From positions 1,488,001 through 1,552,000 of the forward strand of contig NZ_LR746496.1 of NCBI RefSeq assembly GCF_902729405.1: a stretch of DNA of 64,000 nt, given 5' to 3'. Made by a program: the position numbers and the translations under genes. Source of the DNA: Acididesulfobacillus acetoxydans. Lineage in GTDB: Bacteria > Bacillota > Desulfitobacteriia > Desulfitobacteriales > Desulfitobacteriaceae. Positions 17,106 to 27,643 of this stretch are shown one piece after another; position 1 is the stretch's first letter, and every line of letters begins with the position of its first letter. The notes under the pieces are model-generated. The model searched no databases. It was not told the origin of the DNA and was given only the letters and a program-made list of their open reading frames with translations.

Positions 17106-17138
17106 CGGGTCCTGGTTTTGAGAAAGGAGCGAAATCGT

Positions 17139-19820
17139 GTGGAATGGATCACACTGACGATTGACGGGCGCAGCGTAAGTGTCCCGAAAGGGACCACTGT
17201 TTTGCAAGCCTGCCGGATGAACAATATACCGATTCCCACTCTGTGTCATGATCCGGAACTGACAGCCACCGGATCCTGCCGCCTTTGTATTGTGGAAATA
17301 GAGGGCATGCGCAACCTCCCTCCCTCCTGCGTGACGCAAGCCACGCAAGGTATGGTGGTGCGTACCCGGACCGAAAAAGTGCGGGAAGCGCGTAAAACCA
17401 TTTTGGAACTGCTGGTAGCCAATCATCCGCTGGATTGTATGACCTGTCAGAAGATGGGATCCTGTGATCTGGCTAAATATGCCTATGAATACCAGGTGAC
17501 CGGGGAGGCGTTCTCCGGGGGCGAGCGTCGGCAGCTGCCCATCGATGACAGCAATCCTTTTATTCTTAGAGATCCCAATAAATGCATTCTCTGCGGCAAG
17601 TGTATCCGGGCTTGTGAAGAGGTGCAGGGCCGCAGTGTTCTGGATTTCTCCTACCGCGGCTTCAATACTCAAGTGGGTCCGGCCTTCAATCTGCCCTATG
17701 CGGAGTCGGAGTGCGTTTTCTGCGGTTCCTGTGTTTCCGTCTGCCCGGTCGGGGCCTTGACGGAAAAAGAAATGGTGGGTCAAGGGCGTCCCTGGGAAGT
17801 GAAAAAAGTCCAGACGACTTGTCCCTTCTGCGGGACGGGCTGCAACTTCGATCTCAATGTCAAAGACGGAAAAGTCATCGGCGTGACATCCAATCCCGAG
17901 GCCCCGGTCAACGGGCGCGCCCTCTGTGTCAAGGGCCGTTTCGGCATGGACATGATCCACAGCCCGAACCGTTTGACGACACCGCTCATTAAGAAAGACG
18001 GGGAGTTCGTTGAGGCCAGTTGGGACGAGGCTTTGAGTCTGGTGGCGGAAAAACTGGGAGAGATCAAGGCCCAGTACGGAGCAGACTCCATTGCGGCTCT
18101 CAGTTCGGCTCGCTGCACCAACGAAGAAAATTATCTGATGCAAAAGTTCATGCGCGCGGTGATTGGCACCAATAACGTCGATCACTGCGCCCGGACCTGA
18201 CACGCTCCCACAGTGGCCGGTCTGGCCATTACGTTTGGTTCGGGAGCGATGACGAACTCCATCAACGAGATTCCCCATTCAGAAGTTCTCTTTGTGATCG
18301 GCTCGAATACCACGGAAGCGCATCCGGTCATCGGGGCCAAAATGAAACAAGCGGTGGCCAACGGCGCCAAGCTGATCGTTATTGACCCGCGGCGCATCGA
18401 GTTGGCGGAGATGGCGGATGTCTGGCTTCGGCTGCGCCCCGGTACGGATATTGCCTTGGTGAACGGGATCATGAACATTATTCTCAGCCATGGTTGGGAA
18501 GACAAGGAGTTCATCGCCGAGCGCACGGAGGAGTTCGAGAAGTTCCGTGAGCAAGTGCAGAAATTCCCGCCCGAAGTGGTCAGTAAACTCACCGGAGTGC
18601 CCGTTGAAGAGATGCTGGAGGCCGCGCGCATTTACGCCACAGCCGAACGGGCCCAGATCTTTTACACTTTGGGGATCACCGAGCATACCTGCGGTACGGA
18701 CAATGTCATGACCTTGGCCAATCTGGCCATGCTTACGGGCAATGTCGGCAAGGAGAATTCCGGGGTCAATCCCCTGCGCGGGCAGAACAATGTGCAGGGG
18801 GCCTGTGATATGGGGGCGCTGCCTAACACATTCCCCGGTTACCAGAATGTTACCAGTCCCACTGTCCGGGCCAAGTTTGAAGAGGCCTGGCACGTACCCC
18901 TCAATCCCAAGCCCGGTTTCATGATTCCGGATATGTTTGAAGCCGCCATCAGTAAAGATTTAAGGGCGATGTATATCATGGGTGAGGATCCGGTTCTGAC
19001 TGACGCGGATGCCAACCATGTGCGCCAAGGCTTGGAAACGCTTGACTTCTTGGTCGTCCAGAATATTTTCCTCTCCGAAACGGCGAAACTGGCCGATGTG
19101 GTTCTGCCGGGAGCCAGTTTTGCGGAAAAAAGCGGGACTTTCACCAACACCGAGCGCCGGGTACAGATGGTCAATCAGGCGATAGAACCTCTGGGCCAGG
19201 CGCGGACGGACTGGGAAATTCTCTGCGAGTTGGCGGGGCGCCTCGGATACGCTTTCGATTATGAGTCCCCGGCCGAGATCATGGCGGAAATAGCTTCCCT
19301 GACACCCCAATATGCCGGGATCAGCTTCGAGCGCTTGGGTACCCAGGGCCTGCAGTGGCCGGTTCCCACGGCGGAACATCCGGGCACAAAGTTCCTGCAC
19401 GAAGGAAAATTCTCCCGCGGCAAAGGGCTCTTTATGCCGATCGAGTACCAGCTTCCGGACGAACTTCCGGACGATGAGTATCCGCTCCTTCTCGGCACGG
19501 GGCGCAAGCTTTCCCATTACAATGTGATGACGCGCAACTCGGCAGCCCTGGAGAGCTATTCGCCGGAAGAACTGGCGGAGATGAGCCCGCAAGATGCCGA
19601 GCGGCTGGGAATCAAAGACGGTGAAAGGGTCAAAGTCGCGTCCAGGCGGGGCGAGCTGGAGACGCGGGTTCAGGTCACGGACCGGGTTCCCCCCGGTATG
19701 CTCTGGATGACGTTGCATTACAAAGAGTCACCGGTTAACGTGCTTACTAACGGCGCTTACGATAAAGTCGCGAAAACTTACGAGTACAAAGTGTGTGGAG
19801 TCAAGGTCCGGAAGCTGTAA
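17139..19820 (+). CDS. fdhA: Selenocysteine-containing formate dehydrogenase catalytic subunit
   Basis: Oxidises formate, or reduces CO2, at a Mo/W bis-MGD centre. The reading frame is open for 2.7 kb except for UGA at 18198-18200, which falls in NNVDHCART-U-HAPTVAGLA, the exact selenocysteine place of the family (residue 354). Length with Sec is 893 residues, the length I recall for the Moorella enzyme. N-terminal parts: [2Fe-2S] domain with CRLC, the HxxxC ligand set HPLDCMTC, two [4Fe-4S] clusters (CILCGKCIRAC, CVFCGSCVSVC), then the molybdopterin domain with its own cluster CPFCGTGC and C-terminal MopB domain. GTG 17139 follows AAAGGAG. A GGTCT-loop hairpin follows the UGA. Splitting it into two genes would be an error. 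Confidence 0.95.
18198..18230 (+). promoter_or_regulatory. Selenocysteine UGA with SECIS hairpin of fdhA
   Basis: UGA at 18198-18200 is followed 11 bases later by a 7-bp stem, AGTGGCC (18212-18218) with GGCCATT (18224-18230), one G-U pair included. The apical loop is GGTCT, the same loop bases known from the E. coli fdhF SECIS. The loop begins after 18 intervening bases. Confidence 0.85.
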
Positions 19821-21924: not shown

Positions 21925-22100
21925 AGTGTCTGTGAGAGGCGAGAAGGCGTGGGTAACCTACGATACGCTCCGGAGAGTCACGGCGCGAAAATCGGCGGCA
22001 TGACAGGGCTTTTTCCGGGAATACTTGTTCACTGGGGATACCGGCGGCTACGACGCACGCAGCCGGCTGTAGACGAATAGGGGAAGAATAGAGTATAGTA

Positions 22101-22175
22101 AAGTAAAGCAGAGTGAAGTAAAGCAGAGTGAAGTAAAGCAGAGTGAAGTAAAGCAGAGTGAAGTAAAGCAGAGTA
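22101..22175. repeat. Five tandem copies of a 15-bp unit
   Basis: AAGTAAAGCAGAGTG is repeated five times without error except the last base of unit five; decayed AAGGAAAGT-like units flank both sides (22090-22210). The unit is a multiple of three, so a spurious open frame exists on the minus strand. The gap 21925-22308 has no other feature I can support. Confidence 0.9.
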
Positions 22176-22308
22176 AAGGAAAGTAGAGTAGAGGAAAGGA
22201 AAGGAAAGGCCTACCGAAGCTTTTCCGCAGCTTTTAAAGTACGGATGTAAAGTGAGCAAAGAGTCGAGTATGGCAGAGGAAAAGGCGAATCCGGAAGGGG
22301 GCAGGTCA

Positions 22309-22563
22309 GTGGAGCCAACAAAGGGTGTTACCATGTATATCTTGCCGCTCTGACCGCACTGTACGCGGGCCAGGCGGTTCTTCGAGTCTCGAGGAATATC
22401 ATGGACGGAAAAGAACATTATCTTTCCGAAAGTCAGGAAAGAGATGCAAGCGCTGACGGACGCCCTGACGGTGCCGGTGACCCGGGTGGGCGACAGGGTG
22501 CTGGTGGGCTTCTCCAGCCGGGAATATGAGGAGGCGTTTGAGAATTACCAGGCCGGATCTTGA
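22309..22563 (+). CDS. Selenocysteine glutaredoxin (UxxC active site)
   Basis: A small thiol-redox protein of 84 residues that is invisible to standard gene finding because its first active-site residue is encoded by UGA (22351-22353). The frame reads GVTMYILPL-U-PHCTRARRF, then GISWTEKNI, LTVPVTRVGDRVLVGF, all in the order of the glutaredoxin fold: active-site CxxC here UPHC, cis-proline segment VPVT, and GDxxxxGF near the end. UGA falls exactly where the first Cys belongs. GTG 22309 lies 7 bases after GGGGG; ATG 22333 or ATG 22270 are alternatives. It overlaps the mobA start. Sec-containing glutaredoxins are known from a few clostridia. Expected role: fast thiol-disulfide exchange in the cytoplasm. 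Confidence 0.82.
22351..22380 (+). promoter_or_regulatory. UGA codon and putative SECIS hairpin of the glutaredoxin
   Basis: UGA 22351-22353, then GGGCC (22367-22371), loop AGGC, GGTTC (22376-22380), a 5-bp stem with two G-U pairs. The loop starts after 18 intervening bases, the same distance as in fdhA. The stem is weak and its loop lacks the GGTCT of fdhA, so the structure is less certain than the UGA reading. Confidence 0.5.
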
Positions 22564-23161
22564 AGGGAGCCAAGCGTTCCCTCTGCCTGCCACGGGAATC
22601 TTCTTGGCGGGCGGAACTAATTCGCGAATGGGGCGTAACAAAGCGTTTTTGGAATTCGGGGGTAAACCGCTGGTCGAACGAAGTCTGGCCGTTTTGAGTT
22701 CTGTTTTCGAAGAAGTACTGATCAGCAGCAATGAGCCCGCCCTTTATCAGGCTTATGGGGTCCGGGTCGTTCAGGATCAAGTCTCGGGGAAGGGTCCTTT
22801 GGCGGGCCTGGCCGCGGGCCTGGGGGCCGCCCGTTTTGACGCCGCTTTTTTTACTGCCTGCGATATGCCCTTTGTTCGGGAGGAGCTGATTCGCTATCTT
22901 TGGCGGAGTCTGCCGGGCTACGAAATTGTCGTGCCCCGGGCGGGCGAAGTAGTTCATCCTTTGCACGCTTTTTACCGGAAGAGCTGCCTGCCGGCGATGG
23001 AGGAAAATCTGCGGGCGGGCCGGTATAAGATCATCGCCTTTTATTCCTCTTGCCGGGTGCGGTATGTTCTGGCAGAGGAGCTCCAGGCTTTCGGCGACGC
23101 AGCCAAGATGTTGGCCAATGTCAACACTCCCGAGGAATGGGCGGCCCTGGTGGGGAACTAG
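22526..23161 (+). CDS. mobA: Molybdenum cofactor guanylyltransferase MobA
   Basis: Joins GMP to molybdopterin to give the bis-MGD cofactor that FdhA needs. GIFLAGGTNSRMGRNKAFLEF is the nucleotide-binding signature, with RMG and K typical, and TACDMPFVR holds the metal-binding Asp. About 211 residues, usual length. The start is unclear: ATG 22526 has a poor site, TTG 22538 lies behind GAGGAGG, and both overlap the glutaredoxin gene, implying coupled translation. It ends 4 bases inside the convergent fdhD. Confidence 0.93.
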   Translation: MRRRLRITRPDLEGSQAFPLPATGIFLAGGTNSRMGRNKAFLEFGGKPLVERSLAVLSSVFEEVLISSNEPALYQAYGVRVVQDQVSGKGPLAGLAAGLGAARFDAAFFTACDMPFVREELIRYLWRSLPGYEIVVPRAGEVVHPLHAFYRKSCLPAMEENLRAGRYKIIAFYSSCRVRYVLAEELQAFGDAAKMLANVNTPEEWAALVGN

Positions 23162-23946
23162 GTGGCAGCGGTGATGATGCGCTGGGGAGCGGTGTAGATA
23201 TTCAAATGCTCATTGCGGGCAAAACCGATCACCGTGATGTTTAAATCGCGGGCCAGAGTCAGTGCCAAATCGGTGGGGGCGGAACGCGCCACAAGAATGG
23301 GAAGATTCATCTTCGCCACTTTCAGGAGAATTTCGGAGGAGACCCGGCCGCTGAAAAAGATCACATGGTCCGCCAAGTCGATTTTGGCCCGGAAGGCTTG
23401 ACCGAACAGTTTGTCGAAAACGTTGTGGCGGCCGATGTCATAGCTAGTAAACAGGATTCGGCCCCGAAAAGCCAAACCGCCGTTATGAACTCCCCCAGTG
23501 GCTCGGAAGAGCGGCTGAGTTTGCAGATGGGCGGCATAAGCATGAGCGTCTGCCAAGGAAATGACAGCGGCGGAGGCCTGGGGCTTTGCCAGTCTGGCAT
23601 CGTTGGCGAAAGCGAAGGAGGCCCGGCTCTTGCCGCAACAGGCGGAGAGAAAGCGTTTGCTCATCACTTCTTCTTCCGGAGCGCGGTTTTTTCCCTTGAC
23701 GAAAACCGCTTTGTCCCAGGGATCGTAGGCAATGGCAATCAGATCATCGAACTCGCGGATAAACCCCTCGCTGAGCAGAAAGCCCAGAGCCAACTCCTCG
23801 ATTTGGGCGGGGGAACAGAGCAGGGTCACTATTTCCTCATTGTTGAAATAAAGGGTTAGAGGGGTTTCCAGGACGACCGCATCTTCGGTTTCTTCGGCTT
23901 TCGCCCCATTGGCTCTGATGATTGGGACCATGACAGTTTCAGACAT
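23158..23946 (-). CDS. fdhD: Formate dehydrogenase sulfurtransferase FdhD
   Basis: Needed for formate dehydrogenase activity: it passes sulfur from a desulfurase to the Mo/W centre. 262 residues with the FdhD marks LGFLLSEGFI, TGGVHNGGL, DIGRHNVFDKLFG and SGRVSSEI. The cysteine motif is SACCGKS, two adjacent Cys in place of the CxxC of E. coli. Convergent with mobA, overlapping by four bases. ATG follows TAGGAGGG on the minus strand. A perfect palindrome TATTGTACAATA lies just upstream (23980-23991). Confidence 0.95.
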   Translation of the reverse strand: MSETVMVPIIRANGAKAEETEDAVVLETPLTLYFNNEEIVTLLCSPAQIEELALGFLLSEGFIREFDDLIAIAYDPWDKAVFVKGKNRAPEEEVMSKRFLSACCGKSRASFAFANDARLAKPQASAAVISLADAHAYAAHLQTQPLFRATGGVHNGGLAFRGRILFTSYDIGRHNVFDKLFGQAFRAKIDLADHVIFFSGRVSSEILLKVAKMNLPILVARSAPTDLALTLARDLNITVIGFARNEHLNIYTAPQRIITAAT

Positions 23947-24622: not shown

Positions 24623-24769
24623 AAGCAAGATAATCGCAAATAGTTTGCTCCAAAACTGGAATCCTACGGTGTAGAACTATGGTGACCAGGCAAGTGCCGG
24701 CGGGTACTCGGGTAGTGTTGGAAACGGCGCTATCTCCTGTGGGAAAGGAGTCTGTATACAAGGCGGAAG

Positions 24770-24800: not shown

Positions 24801-24837
24801 TTCATCCAATCGTGAGGCTCCCACTGAACGAGTTCAC
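24801..24837 (-). repeat. Hairpin repeat copy C, minimal and inverted
   Basis: On the minus strand it reads GTGAACTCGTTCA then GTGGGAGCCTCACGATTGG and ATGAA: both ends of copies A and B with almost all the middle missing. Confidence 0.7.
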
Positions 24838-24898
24838 TTCCGTTCTTTTTGCAGCAAAATGGGAAATGATCTGGGCACCGGGCAAGGGGGAATGTGGG

Positions 24899-25870
24899 AT
24901 GCAGGACCAATATCAAAGGAAAATTGAATACCTGCGTATTTCGGTAACGGACCGCTGCAATTTACGCTGTCAATACTGTATGCCGGCAGAAGGGATACCT
25001 TGGATTCCGCATGAGAGGATTTTGTCCTTTGAAGAAATTCTGCGCCTGATGGCTGTCAGTACGCATTTGGGCTTTAGGCGTTTTCGGGTGACAGGGGGTG
25101 AACCCCTCGTGCGTAAAGGAATCGTAGAGTTCCTGGAGCAGGCGTCCCATCTGCCCGGAGTCGAGGATCTAATGCTCACGACCAACGGAATATTCTTGCC
25201 GGAGACGGCGTTTGCACTCAAAGCGGCCGGCGTTAACCGGGTGAATATCAGCCTGGACACGTTGGACCCGCTGCGTTACAAGGAGATCACGCGCGGCGGG
25301 GATGTCCGCCAAGCGCTCCAAGGAGTCTTTCGTTCTCTCGAAGCCGGACTTGAGCCGGTCAAGCTCAACGTTGTCGTTGTGCGCAGTCTCAACCTGGACG
25401 AATTGCCGCGCTTTTTGGACCTGGCCGAAAACTATCCGCTGAACGTGCGTTTTATCGAACTGATGCCGATTGGCACCGGCTCCGAACGGCGGAACGACTT
25501 CGTTCCCATTGACGAGATGATCCAACTTCTGGGATTGGCAAAAGCGCCCCAGGCTCAAGATGTTGCCGGGGGAGGACCGGCAGAATACTTGCGGCCCGCG
25601 GGATTCCAAGGGAGCATCGGGTTTATCAGTGCTCTCAGCCGGCATTTTTGCCACACCTGTAACAGGGTGCGTTTGACTGCGGATGGGAAATTGAGGCCCT
25701 GCCTGCACAGCAGTTATGAAGTGGACCTGCTTTCAGCCCTGCGTTCCGGCAAATCGGACGCCGAATTGTTGGACATTTTCGCGCGCGCCGTCTGGAGCAA
25801 ACCGGCCGAACACCACATGAACGAACAGGCGTGGCAGGACAAGCGCTACATGTCGCAGATCGGAGGCTAA
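24899..25870 (+). CDS. moaA: GTP 3',8-cyclase MoaA
   Basis: Radical SAM enzyme for the first step of molybdopterin synthesis. The SAM cluster motif is CNLRCQYC (residues about 20-27) and the C-terminal cluster ligands are CHTCNRVRL and the later LRPCLHS Cys. [11 protein letters not shown] is typical. 323 residues. ATG 24899 follows AAGGGGG; an earlier start at 24812 would run through the repeat at 24801-24837. Followed by moaC after 16 bases. The extreme C terminus ends MSQIGG, with the GG tail needed for catalysis in MoaA. Confidence 0.96.
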
Positions 25871-25886
25871 AGATTGGAGGACAAAG

Positions 25887-26372
25887 ATGGATTTGACCCA
25901 TTTTGATTCGGAAGGACGGGCCCGCATGGTGGATGTCAGCGAGAAGGCGGAAACGGCGCGGTTCGCTCTGGCCAAAGGGAGGGTGCGGATGGAGACGGGC
26001 ACCTGGGAAAGGATCAAAAGCGGCGGGATTGAAAAGGGTGATGTCCTGGCAGTAGCTCAGGTGGCCGGGATTATGGCGGCTAAGCGCACGTCGGCTTTGA
26101 TTCCCATGTGTCATCCCCTGGCCATAACGAGTGCCAAGCTGGATTTTGCGCTGGAGGAACCGGGCATTGTCGAGATCGGGGCGACGGTCAAAGTGACCGG
26201 CAAAACAGGGGTGGAGATGGAAGCTCTGACAGCTGTGAGTGTCGCGGCTCTGACCATTTATGATATGTGCAAAGCCATTGACAAAACGATGGTGATGAGC
26301 GATATTCGTCTGATGGAAAAAGCCGGCGGCAAGAGCGGCCATTTTCGGCGCAACCCGGAAGCCCAGGAATAG
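25887..26372 (+). CDS. moaC: Cyclic pyranopterin monophosphate synthase MoaC
   Basis: Works with MoaA to form cPMP. 161 residues, with [18 protein letters not shown] at the N terminus, MCHPLAITS with the active-site His, and [19 protein letters not shown] and YDMCKAID in the core. TTGGAGGACAAAG precedes the ATG. Same operon as moaA. Confidence 0.96.
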
Positions 26373-26702
26373 GAGCCCCGGCGGGTATGACAGACCGGCG
26401 CCCGAGTCTTCGGCAGACGTCGAGACAGAAGCGCCTCTGTGACTCCGGCGCGCCACCGGGGTGGTTGACTGTTCAGGGTGTTGGGTGCAATGGCGTGAGT
26501 CCGCGCTGTGGCAGACTGACCCTGTTGGCGCGGCTTAACACTGCACCGCCTGCCTGCGTGCGCGGGCGCTCCCCGACTCGGACGGTTCGCTTGGCTTGTG
26601 GAGCCTCGGTTAAACACAGGCGAACACGCGACTAAACAGGGGTCCGCCGAACGCCCGAGGCCGGAGGCGCGGGATCGGATGAAAAACGATGGGAGCGGAT
26701 AG
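26373..26702. other. GC-rich gap with no recognisable gene
   Basis: About 330 bases between moaC and the MOSC gene. A short plus-strand frame exists (26387-26635) but its Arg/Pro/Cys-rich product matches nothing I know and has no good ribosome site. I see no RNA signature. Confidence 0.5.
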
Positions 26703-27140
26703 ATGATGGCTAAAATAGTAGCCGTATGCAGCAGTGAACGGAAAGGAATGCGCAAGAAGAACGTCGGCACCGCCCTGCTGAAGGCGAATTACGGTCTCGA
26801 GGGGGATGCCCACGCCGGTGCTTGGCACCGGCAGGTGAGCCTCTTGGCTTTGGAAAGCATCCGCAAAATGCGGGATTTGGGTTTACAAGTCGGGCCGGGG
26901 GACTTCGCCGAGAATCTGACCACGGAGGGAATTGATTTGGTCAGCCTGCCGATCGGCACCAAGCTGCGCCTCGGTCCCCAGGGCCTGGCTGAGGTGACAC
27001 AGATTGGAAAAGAGTGCCACAGTAAGTGCGCCATCTACTATCAGGCCGGGGACTGCGTCATGCCGAAGGAGGGTATCTTCGTCCGCGTGCTCACGGGCGG
27101 GCCGATCTCTGTCGGCGATGAAATCGAGGTGATGCCTTAA
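26703..27140 (+). CDS. MOSC-domain protein
   Basis: A 145-residue stand-alone MOSC domain, the module found at the C terminus of Moco sulfurases and in YiiM/MOCS-like proteins, thought to bind the sulfurated cofactor. Visible marks: GLEGDAHAGAWHRQVSLL, GDFAENLTTEGIDL, and GKECHSKCAIYYQAGDCVMP with the conserved Cys. Among moa/mog genes it is probably a cofactor carrier or storage step. Its TAA overlaps the mogA ATG. Confidence 0.9.
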   Translation: MMAKIVAVCSSERKGMRKKNVGTALLKANYGLEGDAHAGAWHRQVSLLALESIRKMRDLGLQVGPGDFAENLTTEGIDLVSLPIGTKLRLGPQGLAEVTQIGKECHSKCAIYYQAGDCVMPKEGIFVRVLTGGPISVGDEIEVMP

Positions 27141-27643
27141 TGTTCAGAGTCGGAATCATTACCGCGTCCGACAAGGGTTCGCGCGGGGAGAGGGAAGATT
27201 TGTCTGGGGCCGCGTTGCGTGAACTCGTGCGGGAGATCGGGGCTGAGGTCGTGGAATATGCCGTGCTGCCGGACGAGCGGACTCAGCTGGCGGCCACTAT
27301 GCGTACCTGGGCGGACGAGCTGGGGTTGGATCTGATTTTGACGACTGGCGGAACCGGCTTTGCTCTTCGGGATGTGACGCCGGAAGCCACCCTGGAGATC
27401 GCGGACAGAATAGTGCCCGGCATAGCCGAAGTTATGCGCGCGGAAAGCCTTAAAGCCACGCCGAAGGCTATGCTGAGCCGGGCCGTTTCCGTCTTGCGCA
27501 AGCAAACCTTAATTATCAATATGCCAGGCAGCCCGAAGGCTGTGCGCGAGTGTTGGGCCGCTATTGCTCCGGCTTTGCCGCATGGTATTGAGATTCTGAA
27601 AGGGGAAGCGGGTGAATGTGCCGCGGGTCCTGTACAAGGGTGA
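27140..27643 (+). CDS. mogA: Molybdopterin adenylyltransferase / MoaB-MogA family
   Basis: Activates molybdopterin with AMP before metal insertion. 167 residues; RVGIITASDKGSRGEREDLSG, TTGGTGFALRDVTPEAT and NMPGSPKAVRECW are the family blocks. It starts in the TAATG overlap with the MOSC gene. MogA (active) and MoaB (in some bacteria inactive) are hard to separate by eye; the DVTPEAT and GTG motifs suggest an active enzyme. Confidence 0.92.
   Translation: MFRVGIITASDKGSRGEREDLSGAALRELVREIGAEVVEYAVLPDERTQLAATMRTWADELGLDLILTTGGTGFALRDVTPEATLEIADRIVPGIAEVMRAESLKATPKAMLSRAVSVLRKQTLIINMPGSPKAVRECWAAIAPALPHGIEILKGEAGECAAGPVQG

Follow-up and report, generated by a model that had tools for sequence, protein, structure and literature searches.

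The window analyzed here is a stretch of 64,000 nucleotides from the genome of Acididesulfobacillus acetoxydans. Positions 22309..22563 of its forward strand hold a gene for a glutaredoxin-like protein that starts with GTG, runs for 84 codons, and ends with a TGA stop at 22561-22563. A Shine-Dalgarno-like AGGGGG (22296..22301, +), read from the sequence, lies 7 nt ahead of the GTG at 22309. The sequence-only reading had described an 84-codon frame with a single internal TGA in LPL-U-PHC, followed by VPVT and then GDRVLVGF, and the letters of the window agree on each point. The internal TGA (22351..22353, +) is a candidate selenocysteine (Sec) codon and would supply the first residue of a UPHC active site. 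With Sec at that position, the frame from 22309 to 22560 translates as VEPTKGVTMYILPL-U-PHCTRARRFFESRGISWTEKNIIFPKVRKEMQALTDALTVPVTRVGDRVLVGFSSREYEEAFENYQAGS. A candidate bSECIS hairpin, GTTCTTCGA-GTC-TCGAGGAAT, occupies 22377..22397 (+), with its loop GTC at 22386-22388 starting 32 nt after the TGA. Just upstream of the redoxin gene, at 22097-22189, a 15-nt repeat, AGTGAAGTAAAGCAG, occurs six times.

Gene neighborhood

The gene for molybdenum cofactor guanylyltransferase, mobA (22526..23161, +), follows directly. In its longest reading it overlaps the redoxin gene by 38 nt, including the redoxin stop, and AGGAGG (22529..22534, +), read from the sequence, lies within the redoxin EYEE codons and may serve as the ribosome site of mobA. 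The mobA start is left provisional because several relatives have neither ATG nor GTG at the expected place. Beyond mobA lies fdhD (23158..23946, -), encoding the formate dehydrogenase accessory sulfurtransferase, and then, at 24812..27643 (+), genes that we take from their sequences to be moaA, moaC, a MOSC-domain gene, and mog. A match to the Moco riboswitch (RF01055), scoring just over the gathering score, is found at 24636-24767 ahead of moaA and fits the molybdenum-cofactor theme of the neighborhood. Upstream, fdhA (17118..19820, +) encodes a formate dehydrogenase with an in-frame TGA (Sec) at 18198; a Sec formate dehydrogenase has been reported in the proteome of A. acetoxydans INE (PMC8982180), which we take to be the same strain or one very close to it. 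The INE genome as published, closest to Peptococcaceae bacterium CEB3, has its formyl-THF cyclo-ligase, formate dehydrogenase, and histidine kinase genes in the order seen here.

This arrangement recurs. Among 32 homologous loci, the redoxin gene stands directly ahead of mobA in 24, one of them a Cys form (L035) from another family. The usual order past mobA is fdhD on the other strand, moaA, moaC, the MOSC-domain gene, and mog, so that linkage of the latter four to the redoxin-mobA neighborhood is seen across loci, some of which are too short to include them all. Because at most of the linked loci the redoxin and mobA ends overlap or lie next to each other, the translational coupling proposed by the sequence-only reading is plausible.

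The in-frame TGA and its hairpin

A search of 101 genomes returned about 33 clear homologs at 45-92% identity, and 32 loci were read through the position of interest. The codon aligned with TGA 22351 is TGA in 20 of the 32 and TGC or TGT in the other 12, so that homologs do align through the UGA, with Sec or Cys at that place, and no other nonsense codon occurs inside the frame at any of the 32 loci. Pairwise dN/dS for the region after the TGA is 0.021/0.142 between the window redoxin and its same-genus relative CEB3, 0.145/1.59 between the window redoxin and L011, and 0.106/0.974 between L018 and L034, one a Cys form and the other a Sec form. These comparisons indicate that the region downstream of TGA 22351 is under strong purifying selection. 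Standard annotation would show a true stop here, in which case the gene would be either a degenerate glutaredoxin or a short leader coupled to mobA. Such a reading is highly improbable given strong selection past the TGA, retention of TGA at 20 loci in a frame free of further nonsense codons, and Cys as the sole replacement; on purifying selection and TGA conservation the pseudogene and plain-stop interpretations were rejected. Mapping the codon state onto a tree gives at least 2 changes (bootstrap range 1-4), with resolution too poor to count losses or gains of Sec.

The hairpin was initially placed with its loop 18 nt after the TGA, the same distance as in fdhA. For fdhA that distance is correct, with loop GGTCT, but it holds for fdhA only. 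Folding and alignment put the shared redoxin loop 31-32 nt after the TGA, and the 18-nt loop was rejected as the redoxin SECIS element. In the TGA forms (n=19) the hairpin spans alignment columns 27-47, with 96.7% of cells paired, and beats all slid controls. Two of its pairs show changes on both sides, these double changes deriving from few lineages and the hairpin coinciding with a conserved coding stretch. Cys forms (n=11) have 86.4% of hairpin cells paired and no both-side changes. RNAalifold recovers the same helix unaided. Every TGA form preserves the hairpin. It is weaker in most Cys forms, with a stable one persisting in four. For each TGA form the hairpin is more stable than synonymous-codon shuffles would give (P 0.001-0.09), and TGA forms show a larger excess than Cys forms (P=0.015), both comparisons being uncorrected for relatedness. 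The same hairpin appears in register in Alicyclobacillus and in Bacillota metagenome-assembled genomes (MAGs), where C-G mostly takes the place of A-U at pair 35-39. All 24 sequences compared have G at loop column 36. The gene thus has the kind of hairpin looked for in bacterial selenoprotein genes, lying shortly 3' of the UGA and bearing a G near the beginning of its apical loop. The generally accepted range of bacterial SECIS distances covers the spacing seen here.

The genome of A. acetoxydans, searched as one contig of 4,520,225 bases, encodes SelA (548 bits), SelB (345 bits, or 371 with a second stretch), SelD (406 bits), and tRNA-Sec (63 bits). The sequence-only reading had named absence of selA, selB, and selC as evidence that would count against it; the genome instead holds selA, selB, selD, and tRNA-Sec. 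SelD (L148, G000:C1:3921896-3922822) is probably a selenoprotein itself, since its gene has an in-frame TGA. Matches to selA occur in 31 of 33 related genomes searched, 3 of the 31 having only fragments in incomplete assemblies. Of the two genomes with no selA match, one (G052) carries a Cys-form redoxin and has no selB over cut-off. The other is the draft genome G009 of Paradesulfitobacterium ferrireducens, whose redoxin (L071) has the TGA. This genome is roughly 90% complete and does have selB; we read its missing selA as a gap in the draft assembly.

Readthrough of the TGA by a near-cognate tRNA, in place of Sec insertion, we consider very unlikely in a genome whose Sec machinery is complete, where the catalytic position exchanges with Cys only, and where a conserved hairpin lies inside the accepted SECIS range. 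The interpretation of the locus as a functional selenoprotein gene is supported: a UGA with Sec and Cys homologs aligned through it is found together with selA, selB, selD, and tRNA-Sec, features by which bacterial selenoproteins are recognized.

Protein family, reductant, and further copies

The protein matches the glutaredoxin model PF00462 with E=1e-10 and 42 bits, far above chance and well over the gathering score of 22.9. An AlphaFold2 model, made from the sequence with C for U, predicts a thioredoxin fold (pLDDT 89.8, pTM 0.81), and together the profile match and predicted fold place the protein in the glutaredoxin superfamily. Archaeoglobus Grx-1 is the first fold match in PDB and dithiol cGrx1 the second (33% identity); by sequence, cGrx1 is the best PDB match (E=7.8e-9). 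The best NCBIfam match, nearly full length, is to YruB (TIGR02196) at 48.6 bits, far under the curated cut-off of 88.55. Next is Uxx-star (NF041212), a model for short glutaredoxin-like (seleno)proteins, at 39.9 bits, also under its cut-off of 66. In a wider alignment, 29 of 29 members match both TIGR02196 and NF041212 at E<=1e-5.

The label glutaredoxin, as first applied, stands for the superfamily and fails for the glutathione-dependent type. The GG motif that follows the cis-Pro strand in classical, glutathione-binding glutaredoxins is absent, with GF or RF in its place in close members, and in its GF block the protein resembles the YruB-type redoxins, to which it is closer. Searches of the A. 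acetoxydans genome for glutamate-cysteine ligase (PF04107, PF04262) found none, so glutathione synthesis by this route is not indicated, and two thioredoxin reductases score over cut-off. On these grounds thioredoxin reductase is likelier than glutathione to be the reductant.

Several genomes carry extra redoxin copies elsewhere. A. acetoxydans has a second Sec redoxin (L061:1294-1659; G000:C1 about 747793-748158), in which a UPHC YruB-like domain is followed by a zinc ribbon, CPQC...CPKC, and a hairpin of its own, GAAAGAGTTTCTTTC, follows the TGA. The acidophiles Alicyclobacillus tolerans (L092) and A. ferrooxydans (L093), whose genomes have selB, encode UPRC redoxins with an in-frame TGA followed by the same hairpin. 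At L087:4001-5259, in a Bacillota MAG, a Sec redoxin gene adjoins selD and faces it. Neighbors of the distant and extra copies include no consistent partner, this nearby selD being the exception.

Proposed function and relation to known selenoproteins

The best explanation for the locus, to which we assign a probability of about 0.92, is that it encodes a functional selenoprotein, namely a YruB-like redoxin of 84 residues. Its UGA would be decoded as selenocysteine by SelA, SelB, SelD, and tRNA-Sec, aided by the hairpin 24-44 nt downstream. The selenolate would then attack a target disulfide or persulfide, the Cys of UPHC would resolve the redoxin-target intermediate, and the redoxin would probably be reset by thioredoxin reductase rather than glutathione. 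Attack and resolution are proposed on the strength of the UxxC motif, the predicted fold, and how cGrx1 behaves. The conserved frame, exchange of Sec with Cys, machinery, hairpin, and linkage come directly from the comparisons; we infer Sec insertion itself, the reductant, and the targets.

The likeliest targets may be thiols of molybdenum-cofactor and formate-dehydrogenase maturation, favored because the gene keeps its place just ahead of mobA, with fdhD and the moa genes close by; we advance this tentatively, at somewhat less than even odds. The more specific proposal, a Sec redoxin dedicated to that maturation and acting on MobA, FdhD, or the Mo-bound sulfido site, is less likely again. Were it true, one selenoprotein would help mature another. 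Alternatively, the Sec redoxin is real but serves as a general thiol or repair redoxin, and its place next to mobA reflects operon sharing, a view that rivals only the pathway part of the interpretation. Homologs lie away from mobA in at least 7 loci, for which reason operon sharing may account for the link, and those of Alicyclobacillus sit beside unrelated genes. Moreover, the studied Sec-glutaredoxin, cGrx1, is a proposed MsrA reductant (PMC7642778). Against a general role stand the linkage to mobA in 24 loci, even in the Cys form from another family, and the result that no MsrA was found in the A. acetoxydans genome, so that the cGrx1 role cannot simply transfer; we therefore rejected MsrA reduction as the role of the window redoxin. 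On balance we see a general role as close to an even chance, about as likely as a role in maturation or more so.

The cGrx1 protein of Clostridium (Alkaliphilus) oremlandii is a natural selenoprotein (PDB 7c10; PMC7642778). It shares with the window redoxin the U/CPHC active site and a small, single-domain thioredoxin fold, predicted in the case of the window redoxin, and differs in genetic partner, being paired with a Sec MsrA where the window redoxin is paired with mobA. Glutaredoxin selenoproteins of Moorella, Geobacter, and Alkaliphilus were listed in 2006 (PMC1794560). By description, rather than by sequence, these are of the same general kind, Sec-glutaredoxins in anaerobes; the relevant passages of that listing do not name Desulfosporosinus or Acididesulfobacillus. 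Sec-glutaredoxins were still a recognized family in a 2026 review, and the present clade therefore counts as an addition to a group known since 2006. In the texts consulted we found no earlier description of the mobA link or of the split between Sec and Cys across Desulfosporosinus, although the clade could figure in Haft and Tolstoy 2025 or in the 2011 cGrx1 paper.

These results add a well supported clade of Sec/Cys redoxins for sulfate-reducing and acidophilic Bacillota. The redoxin encoded here scores under the thresholds of its matching curated models, so annotation is likely to miss or truncate such genes. Close species that carry the same gene with Sec or with Cys form a natural set for the question of what advantage Sec confers, and the conserved position ahead of mobA allows a connection between selenium redox chemistry and the maturation of molybdenum enzymes to be put to the test.
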